Virus record (IMG/VR): IMGVR_UViG_3300022198_001053
Span: 1 to 38,415 of that record
DNA length: 38,415 nt
Strand: one strand, 5' to 3'
Source: a virus
Shown: one piece after another, positions 8,136 through 9,478 of the stretch
How the letters are laid out: the number at the start of each line of letters is the position of its first letter
Numbering within the stretch: position 1 is the first letter of the stretch
The notes under the pieces: model-generated
The model's database searches: none
What the model was told of the DNA's origin: nothing
Seen by the model: only the letters and a program-made list of their open reading frames with translations
Position numbers and translations under genes: made by a program

Positions 8136-8313
8136 CGTCGGCTTCTTTCGTGTAGTCCGCAACCTGAGCGAGCAAGACGAGAGCCTCTGCCCCCACCTTC
8201 ATCCGCTCAAGGCTTTTGAAAAAGGCGACCTCATCGCCGTCTCGGTATGCTTCCTCGGCATCCCGAAGCAGCGCGTTAGTCACTTGTTTGATTTGCTCGT
8301 TAGTATCTTTCAT
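8128..8313 (-). CDS. Small helical hypothetical protein, 61 aa
   Basis: Predominantly helical, charged protein (MKDTNEQIKQVTNALLRDAE) without recognisable motifs. It overlaps the end of the HNH gene by 14 bp and the start of the helix-turn-helix gene by 8 bp, typical of the tightly packed minus-strand operon. Function unknown. Confidence 0.6.
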   Translation of the reverse strand: MKDTNEQIKQVTNALLRDAEEAYRDGDEVAFFKSLERMKVGAEALVLLAQVADYTKEADDV

Positions 8314-8605
8314 TTGTAATCCTCAAAATCCAGTTGTTTTCCTCGGCCCAGGCTGGGTTGTTATGAATATAGTTATGGCAAAAGCGGCAGACTGCAACGA
8401 AAATCGTCGTGTCGCATAGCTTCCCGCCGCGCCCCAAGGGGAGACGGTGATGAATGTCTATTGCTTTGTTCGTTTCGCATATCTCACAGATAGGTCTTTT
8501 CTTTATATGGCCGCTCTTGAGCTTGCGGTATTCCTTTAGTTCTTCGGCACGCTTAGACGACACGCGGTTAAGCGGTGTCTTACGTTTCAGCGGTGAGCGT
8601 TTCAT
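8300..8605 (-). CDS. HNH endonuclease, 101 aa
   Basis: The basic N-terminus MKRSPLKRKTPLNRVSSKRA is typical of small phage HNH proteins. The catalytic core follows: a CxxC pair at residues 40-43, IHHR at 51-54, a second CxxC at 73-76, and H77/H81 in CRFCHNYIHNN. The zinc-finger-supported ββα-metal site therefore appears complete. The ATG at 8605 overlaps the methylase stop as ATGA, so I prefer it to the upstream in-frame ATG at 8623. Small phage HNH proteins may support packaging or cut DNA. This one sits next to the methylase and away from the terminase, so it could be a paired nuclease or a homing enzyme. Confidence 0.88.
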   Translation of the reverse strand: MKRSPLKRKTPLNRVSSKRAEELKEYRKLKSGHIKKRPICEICETNKAIDIHHRLPLGRGGKLCDTTIFVAVCRFCHNYIHNNPAWAEENNWILRITNERY

Positions 8606-9461
8606 TTTGATAGAAGTTCCCATGCGAGTGCAGCCACCGCCGGGACTTGTCCGTTTCCAATGGCTTTAAGTCTGTCCACCCTAGCGGCCACCCCATTAGC
8701 CACTCGACCCACACCGGATTTAGGGGCATCGGCCGGGTCGGTTGTCCACCATGCGCCTGACTGGTTAGAGTTGGGGTTTTCCGAGTAAATTCTGCTGGAT
8801 ATGCTGCCTCCTTTGCATTGTGACACGTTGGCGTCGCCCACTCTTTTTTGCGTGATTTCTTTAATTTCGGTCGGGTCGGATACCCGCGAATCCTTGGGTG
8901 ATTGTTGAGTCCCACTTGTCCATAGTTGGCGCAAGCTGGAATCTTTGTTGCCTCGGCTACTGTTGGCGTCGGCCATGGTTCCGACAATCCACATCCTGTC
9001 CCGCTTATGAGGTGCTCCGGCATGGTGCGCTCCGAGCACTCCCCATCGCGCATCATACCCCATTTCGGCAAGGTCTTTGAGAACCGTTGCGAGTCCTCTT
9101 GTTCTGAGCAAAGGACTGTTTTCGATGAAAGCAAATCTTGGTCGAACCTCACCAATAATCCGCGCCATGTGCCGCCACATTCCGCTGCGACTTCCTTCGA
9201 TTCCTGCGCCTTTTCCTGCGGAGCTGATGTCTTGGCAGGGAAATCCTCCAGAAACGACATCAACACGGCCTCGCCATGGTCGTCCATCAAAGGTTTGAAC
9301 GTCATCCCAAATTGGGAAAGGCGGGAGAACGCCTTCATTTTGTCGGGCGCACAATACGCTTGCGGGATAAGGTTCCCACTCGACGGCGCAGACTGTTCTC
9401 CATCCAAGGAGTTTGCCTCCAAGTATTCCTCCACCAGCACCTGCGAATAAAGCCAGCTCAT
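8580..9461 (-). CDS. Overprinted open frame within the methylase gene, 293 aa
   Basis: This frame is shifted by one base relative to the methylase and stays open for 293 codons, longer than the methylase it overlaps. Its ATG lies 4 nt after the methylase ATG (ATGAATGAG), so both could use the same SD (AAGGA). The translation is not random-looking. From memory, SFLEDFPAKTSA, the segment ending in FSKTLPKWGMMRDGE, WPTPTV and LNPVWVEWLMGWPLGWTDL resemble a family of phage proteins found with dcm-like genes, often labelled hypothetical or methylase. FPAKTSA arises by frame shift from the methylase catalytic FPCQDIS, as expected if the family originated by overprinting. I cannot verify homology or expression here; it could also be a passively open frame. 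Confidence 0.5.
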   Translation of the reverse strand: MSWLYSQVLVEEYLEANSLDGEQSAPSSGNLIPQAYCAPDKMKAFSRLSQFGMTFKPLMDDHGEAVLMSFLEDFPAKTSAPQEKAQESKEVAAECGGTWRGLLVRFDQDLLSSKTVLCSEQEDSQRFSKTLPKWGMMRDGECSERTMPEHLISGTGCGLSEPWPTPTVAEATKIPACANYGQVGLNNHPRIRGYPTRPKLKKSRKKEWATPTCHNAKEAAYPAEFTRKTPTLTSQAHGGQPTRPMPLNPVWVEWLMGWPLGWTDLKPLETDKSRRWLHSHGNFYQNETLTAET

Positions 9462-9465
9462 TCAT
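8602..9465 (-). CDS. DNA (cytosine-5-)-methyltransferase, 287 aa
   Basis: Transfers a methyl group from S-adenosylmethionine to C5 of cytosine in DNA, probably protecting the phage genome from restriction. Motif I is FAGAGGG (residues 7-13). The catalytic cysteine is in GGFPCQ (C77). Motif VI is ENS (115-117) where ENV is usual. Motif VIII is near HKRDRMW (153-159). The C-terminal IX/X region is GVGRVANGVAARVDRLKAIG followed by NGQVP. The target-recognition region is short, so the enzyme is small for the family. It is preceded by a clear SD (GAAAGGAAAAATG) and its stop overlaps the HNH start. A second complete reading frame covers almost the whole gene. Confidence 0.9.
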   Translation of the reverse strand: MNELALFAGAGGGILGGKLLGWRTVCAVEWEPYPASVLCARQNEGVLPPFPIWDDVQTFDGRPWRGRVDVVSGGFPCQDISSAGKGAGIEGSRSGMWRHMARIIGEVRPRFAFIENSPLLRTRGLATVLKDLAEMGYDARWGVLGAHHAGAPHKRDRMWIVGTMADANSSRGNKDSSLRQLWTSGTQQSPKDSRVSDPTEIKEITQKRVGDANVSQCKGGSISSRIYSENPNSNQSGAWWTTDPADAPKSGVGRVANGVAARVDRLKAIGNGQVPAVAALAWELLSK

Positions 9466-9478
9466 TTTTCCTTTCTTA

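Follow-up and report, generated by a model that had tools for sequence, protein, structure and literature searches.

The window analysed here, a stretch of 38,415 nucleotides from the IMG/VR virus record IMGVR_UViG_3300022198_001053, carries on its minus strand a C5 cytosine methylase gene that is also open in a second frame over nearly its whole length. Very likely, judging from the sequences of this gene and its relatives, a single stretch of DNA here encodes one methylase made of two chains: alpha, the catalytic chain, and beta, which would supply the target recognition domain (TRD) and motif IX. The alpha open reading frame (ORF), in frame 1, spans 8602-9465 and 287 amino acids, and the beta ORF, shifted by +1 relative to alpha, spans 8580-9461 and 293 amino acids, for a predicted protein of about 33 kDa that begins MSWLYS. 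The beta ATG lies 4 nt past the alpha ATG, and one Shine-Dalgarno (SD) sequence serves both. These are exactly the positions given by the first-pass annotation, which had described a second ORF of 293 codons starting 4 nt after the methylase ATG behind the same SD, and the segments that it named in this ORF (FPAKTSA and those of the WPTPT type) are present. The features are as follows, with their basis in brackets.

8602-9465, minus strand: alpha, predicted catalytic chain of the C5 cytosine methylase, with motifs I-VIII and X (PF00145, phrog_363, and M.HhaI/M.HaeIII by sequence profile and model)
8580-9461, minus strand: beta, second protein in the +1 frame, putative TRD and motif IX chain (phrog_1008, phrog_26627; open in relatives; codon-shuffle null)
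9469-9473, minus strand: SD AAGGA common to both starts, 3 nt from the alpha ATG and 7 nt from the beta ATG (sequence; spacing in relatives)
9459-9461, minus strand: beta ATG, with an in-frame TGA immediately 5' (ATGAATG; start kept in relatives)
9232-9240, minus strand: PCQ of alpha motif IV, with the catalytic Cys; its +1 image lies within FPAKTSA of beta (invariant in the alpha alignment)
9115-9123, minus strand: ENS of alpha motif VI (E115, N116 and S117 invariant)
9036-9128, minus strand: stretch of double constraint, beta ..KTVLCS..KTLPKWGMMRDGE over alpha motif VII (near-equal changes at positions 1 and 3, alpha residues 121-150)
8989-9006, minus strand: KRDRMW of alpha motif VIII (R155, R157 and W159 invariant)
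8752-8976, minus strand: VIII-X interval, putative TRD, with beta selected and alpha drifting (substitution pattern; alpha spacer unconserved)
8958-8975 and 8826-8840, minus strand: WPTPT and WATPT segments of beta inside the VIII-X interval (sequence)
8667-8723, minus strand: motif-IX-like LNPVWVEWLMGWPLGWTDL of beta (near-invariant; spacing; in-frame copies in L307 and L315)
8641-8673, minus strand: RLKAIGNGQVP of alpha motif X (nearly invariant; position-3 share 0.69 at residues 271-285)
8602-8623, minus strand: 22 nt read in three frames, as the alpha end, the beta tail and the start of an HNH-like gene at 8300-8623 (ORF coordinates)

The division of labour between the two frames is indicated by where each is selected. 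In a +1 overlap, position 3 of an alpha codon is position 2 of a beta codon, and alpha position 1 is beta position 3. In a set of 16 close, independent pairs, alpha positions 1, 2 and 3 had 73, 22 and 245 changes over motifs I-IV, 73, 41 and 149 over motifs V-VIII, and 64, 39 and 91 at the C-end, with 225, 135 and 589 in the flanking genes for comparison. Over the VIII-X interval the counts were 262, 83 and 81, and the codon differences there were 287 nonsynonymous to 24 synonymous when read in alpha and 87 to 174 when read in beta. A finer profile of 37 pairs put the position-3 share at about 0.7 for most of residues 1-90 (0.43 at 46-60), 0.5-0.6 at 91-120, 0.4 at 121-150, 0.2-0.3 at 166-270 and 0.69 at 271-285, and an independent, mainly Gram-positive group had the same frame switch (0.59, 0.42, 0.30 and 0.62). 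By this substitution pattern, alpha is selected over motifs I-VIII and X, both frames are constrained around motif VII, and the VIII-X interval inverts the pattern of a normal gene, with beta selected and alpha drifting freely. Alpha is thus without a TRD and a motif IX. The first-pass annotation had proposed comparing synonymous sites in both frames across related phages, and the outcome is that each frame is selected in its own region. Within the I-VIII region, transversions that are silent in alpha change beta more mildly than their alternatives would (z 6.1 and 6.5, or about 4.5 once double counting is allowed for), which suggests that the N-half of beta matters too, though less; in the C-half, fourfold alpha-synonymous changes are too few for the BLOSUM test.

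What beta contributes can be read from its relatives. The VIII-X interval of alpha is unconserved, and in two loci (L133 and L159) it shrinks to about 15-20 residues, too short for a TRD. Over this interval beta has segments of the WPTPT type, followed by a near-invariant LNPxWVEWLMGxPxGWTDL, in which the NP-5-LMGFP spacing equals the TP-5-LQGFP of a canonical motif IX (Streptococcus phage P0092 methylase, LTPRECWRLQGFP). In two relatives that are single ORFs, the alpha profile matches motifs I-VIII (residues 9-187 of L307 and 13-176 of L315) and, weakly, motif X at the C-end, with the beta profile matching in between (204-295, E 2e-15, and 186-320, E 6e-12). In the split relatives L276, L304, L308 and L309, alpha stops at motif VIII and the +1 ORF holds the TRD, IX and X. 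Because the beta profile matches single-ORF methylases between VIII and X, it is strongly indicated that the C-half of beta is the recognition and motif-IX part of a methylase, placed out of frame. L307, L315 and the actinophage methylases (Leonard gp5, OldBen) have the same I-VIII domain, TPT-type segments and LNPxF/WVEWMMGxPxGW; unlike the window gene, they keep one frame throughout, with motif X in the same chain. A search for more single-ORF relatives with L315 as query returned L315 alone.

The N-half has a different history. FPAKTSA was correctly recognised in the first-pass annotation as the frame-shifted image of the catalytic FPCQDIS, and the N-half of beta is, on this correspondence, overprinted on motifs I-VIII, just as the alpha linker is what the TRD DNA gives when read out of frame. 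The suggestion that the whole family was born by overprinting accordingly holds for the N-half only, as the C-half is not new, being homologous to the in-frame TRD and motif IX of single-ORF methylases; homologs outside the exact overlap do exist, in split and in single-ORF versions.

Traces of beta were also seen beside one-frame enzymes. Four single-ORF methylases (L257 1655-2089, L258 1760-2275, L307 1006-1498 and L315 1434-1953) have in the +1 frame an N-terminal ORF that is beta-like and holds a TPT-type segment, and further TPT-type segments in the main frame, as if segments move between frames. The canonical one-frame methylase of Streptococcus phage P0092 (L170, 1309-2172), which has motifs IX and X, contains an annotated nested +1 ORF (1460-1879) that resembles the middle of beta (DRWMSWGMMSNGKC) without the TRD and motif IX. 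This nested ORF may be a reduced beta, or no more than what the conserved GYDxEW motif looks like in another frame.

The beta frame is open far beyond what the alpha protein would impose. When the synonymous codons of the window gene were permuted with the alpha protein fixed, the beta span acquired 5.2 stops and none of 200 permutations was open. The same permutation in 62 relatives, a diverse set below 80% nucleotide identity, gave a mean expectation of 5.46 stops and a mean P(open) of 0.002, against 3 stops observed in total; over beta residues 3-120 there was 1 stop in the 62 genes, with 1.98 expected per gene. For the independent, mainly Gram-positive set the null was 7.1 stops per beta. 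A query with the alpha protein, which imposes no selection for beta, found 80 viral loci. In 79 of them the +1 frame runs through 230-327 codons free of internal stops; stops in the +2 frame average 17.5 per locus. On these counts the overprint is real, a conserved and selected case of dual coding. The claim of a complete second gene over the methylase is therefore upheld by the codon-shuffle null and the open loci, the gene being kept in many phages, and methylase variation among relatives has rarely broken the second frame, as 79 of the 80 loci attest.

The beta start is equally well preserved. Its ATG is found in 162 of 164 loci, with an in-frame TGA or TAA immediately before it in 149, and in 114 of 116 distinct genes alpha codon 2, which holds the beta ATG, reads AAT; AAC, a change silent in alpha that would abolish this ATG, occurs in none. 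An SD is recognisable in 88 of 113 distinct genes, at 7-9 nt from the beta ATG in 58 of these 88, and in 24 of the 113 the beta ATG is there and the alpha start codon is missing at the aligned place. From the near-invariant ATG, the SD spacing and these 24 genes, it appears that beta translation is probably initiated independently.

These start signals bear on programmed frameshifting, in which ribosomes starting at the alpha ATG would shift +1 after motif VIII into the TRD and motif IX, possibly shifting back before motif X, so as to make a one-chain methylase with a separate beta that is minor or absent. Single-ORF relatives do hold precisely that order in one chain, and it is near motif VIII that selection passes from one frame to the other. 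However, two shifts would be required, and such a mechanism needs neither an open, constrained N-half of beta, the residues 3-120 of which are nearly stop-free, nor a beta ATG, which is near-invariant, stands directly after a stop and has a fitting SD spacing. We therefore regard frameshifting as unlikely, and do not favour the product joining both frames that the first-pass annotation had entertained.

It is very unlikely that beta stands outside the enzyme as a regulator, an inhibitor or a counter-defence protein of its own. Any role could be proposed for the N-half, for which these searches returned nothing outside the overlap, but the C-half is homologous to the very VIII-X segment of methylases that alpha lacks, and more than 200 loci yielded no standalone beta; those loci missed by the simple pattern were all overlapped on inspection. 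Between the two versions of a dual-function pair in the first-pass annotation, a methylase with a partner is the most likely, and one with an inhibitor is unsupported. That the beta frame is open by chance or through composition, with a propagated annotation, is extremely unlikely, because, even if +1 images of conserved methylase motifs would be alike when unselected, which makes N-half identity by itself weak evidence, it is contradicted by the codon-shuffle null, the mirrored substitutions of the VIII-X interval, the conserved start and the in-frame homologs.

Alpha matches PF00145 (E 4e-33) and phrog_363 (E 2e-68) in profile searches and holds motifs I, IV (PCQ), VI, VIII and X of C5 methylases in one chain, but the TRD and motif IX that belong between VIII and X of that chain are missing. 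Alpha resembles M.HhaI/M.HaeIII by sequence profile, and Foldseek with the alpha model led to M.HhaI; in the AlphaFold2 model the V-VIII region alone is confident, and residues 170-272 mostly have a predicted local distance difference test score (pLDDT) below 50. Beta matches phrog_1008 (E 1e-22, residues 66-222) and phrog_26627 (E 6e-16) and had no match in Pfam or NCBIfam. These two families are described as DNA methyltransferase or of unknown function, and PHROGs, in its own grouping, puts into phrog_1008 both nested betas and the C-terminal halves of actinophage methylases. The matches of beta and its relatives are to phrog_1008, phrog_26627 and phrog_35493, families whose descriptions do not mention an out-of-frame origin.

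Several observations weigh against the two-chain methylase. Beta is broken in a few loci (L024/L107, with one stop, and the 3 stops in the 62 representatives), and the test of amino-acid constraint on the N-half is simple and its effect modest. AlphaFold2, given an alignment of 57 sequences, modelled beta by itself with low confidence (pLDDT 55, predicted template modelling score 0.22); such a model fits a chain that folds only beside its partner, without proving it. The beta profile had no significant match among solved structures, so that motif IX is assigned from its position and spacing and from the in-frame homologs. Finally, the single ORFs of L307, L315 and the actinophages still show a beta-like N-terminal ORF in the +1 frame, which makes any order of events tentative.

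In the two-chain methylase that we favour, alpha would form the large catalytic domain, with motifs I-VIII and motif X at its C-terminus, and beta, started 4 nt later from the same ribosome-binding site, would bring in its C-half the TRD and motif IX missing in alpha. The chains would assemble, beta setting the DNA sequence and alpha transferring the methyl group. As to its origin, two frame changes, one after VIII and one between IX and X, may have put the TRD-IX segment out of frame; an upstream start would have rescued it, overprinting the N-half of beta on the catalytic motifs and leaving alpha to read the TRD DNA through as a meaningless linker. We infer beta translation, chain assembly, the need for both chains and the evolutionary order from these comparisons. 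As is general for phage methylases, the methylation would probably protect this phage from host restriction. More tentatively, and with somewhat less than even confidence, the window gene could represent a phage-wide class of methylases whose recognition half is made from another frame as a separate chain, with a de novo N-half that docks onto the catalytic chain, and in which exchange or repetition of WPTPT-type segments shifts specificity with the catalytic chain untouched.

C5 methylases of two polypeptides each are known in M.EcoHK31I and M.AquI (PMC3404938). The large chain of M.EcoHK31I (YGGCCR) has motifs I-VIII, X and a predicted TRD, and its small chain motif IX only (PMC3404938). Compared by published description, the window system is alike in that the large chain has motifs I-VIII and X, with motif IX on another polypeptide. 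In M.EcoHK31I, however, the second polypeptide is smaller, whereas beta has 293 residues and covers nearly the whole of alpha, and the TRD is predicted in the large chain, whereas selection and homology place it in beta here. M.AquI (CYCGRG) likewise has catalytic motifs I-VIII and recognition parts on two chains, but in the M.AquI type the small chain has IX and X, and in the window motif X is in alpha; L276, L304, L308 and L309 are closer to that layout than the window gene is, and L276 does have IX and X in the small chain. By analogy, then, the window system would work like M.EcoHK31I and M.AquI and fully fits neither definition. The EcoHK31I beta ORF, too, may lie inside alpha in another frame; if so, our finding would extend that case phage-wide and reassign the TRD. 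A second protein out of frame within a phage methylase gene is also seen in the ShiLan element, an HNH inside an actinophage methylase (PMC11855218), which is a mobile homing-endonuclease insertion, whereas beta would be part of the enzyme.

From sequence comparison, the two-frame arrangement appears to be conserved across hundreds of phages and mostly missing from annotations. With beta as query, at least about 600 candidate places turned up in IMG/VR, together with 80 contigs of genomes from Pseudomonadota, Verrucomicrobiota, Desulforhopalus and others, all of them overlapped, and the nested pattern is also present in elements of Paenibacillus, Lacticaseibacillus, Salmonella, Bacteroides and Leptospira. 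Plasmid records matched in three cases in all, including a Leptospira plasmid (L262) with the same overlap. In Paenibacillus phage annotations both frames are labelled 'DNA cytosine methyltransferase', so the beta ORF itself has already been seen by annotators; no description or explanation of the phage-wide overlap was found in the open-licence literature.

If the two-chain methylase is real, few same-strand gene overlaps in phages would be longer or more widespread. Unlike in most overprinted genes, homologs here reveal the function, the two frames being two parts of one enzyme, and the locus would be a natural example of a protein domain surviving a frame change. Standard annotation retains one frame, as in RefSeq E. 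coli records, which give only a methylase over the match, and such methylases would consequently be cloned without their recognition subunit and scored as inactive or unspecific. Beta can be removed by mutations that are silent in alpha, so that dual coding lends itself to a direct test.

Prophage copies in E. coli are rare, at 4 of 5426 genomes (H149-H152; also L083), and their records list 'DNA cytosine methyltransferase' alone over the matched stretch (two add a flanking Ea22-like gene), with beta unlisted. The prophage copy of E. coli PT62 is at 1254489-1255210 of NZ_CP090448, and Salmonella phage S9-5 has the locus as well. In the genomic copy L245 both frames shift together at about codon 85, likely through a pseudogene or a sequencing error. 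At 8641-8723 of the window, motif IX of beta and the GRVANGVAARVDRLK lead-in of alpha to motif X are the same DNA; in the Paenibacillus type the two are arranged consecutively and not superposed. The alpha residue that follows RVA is N, D or H, as set by the Leu wobble of beta.
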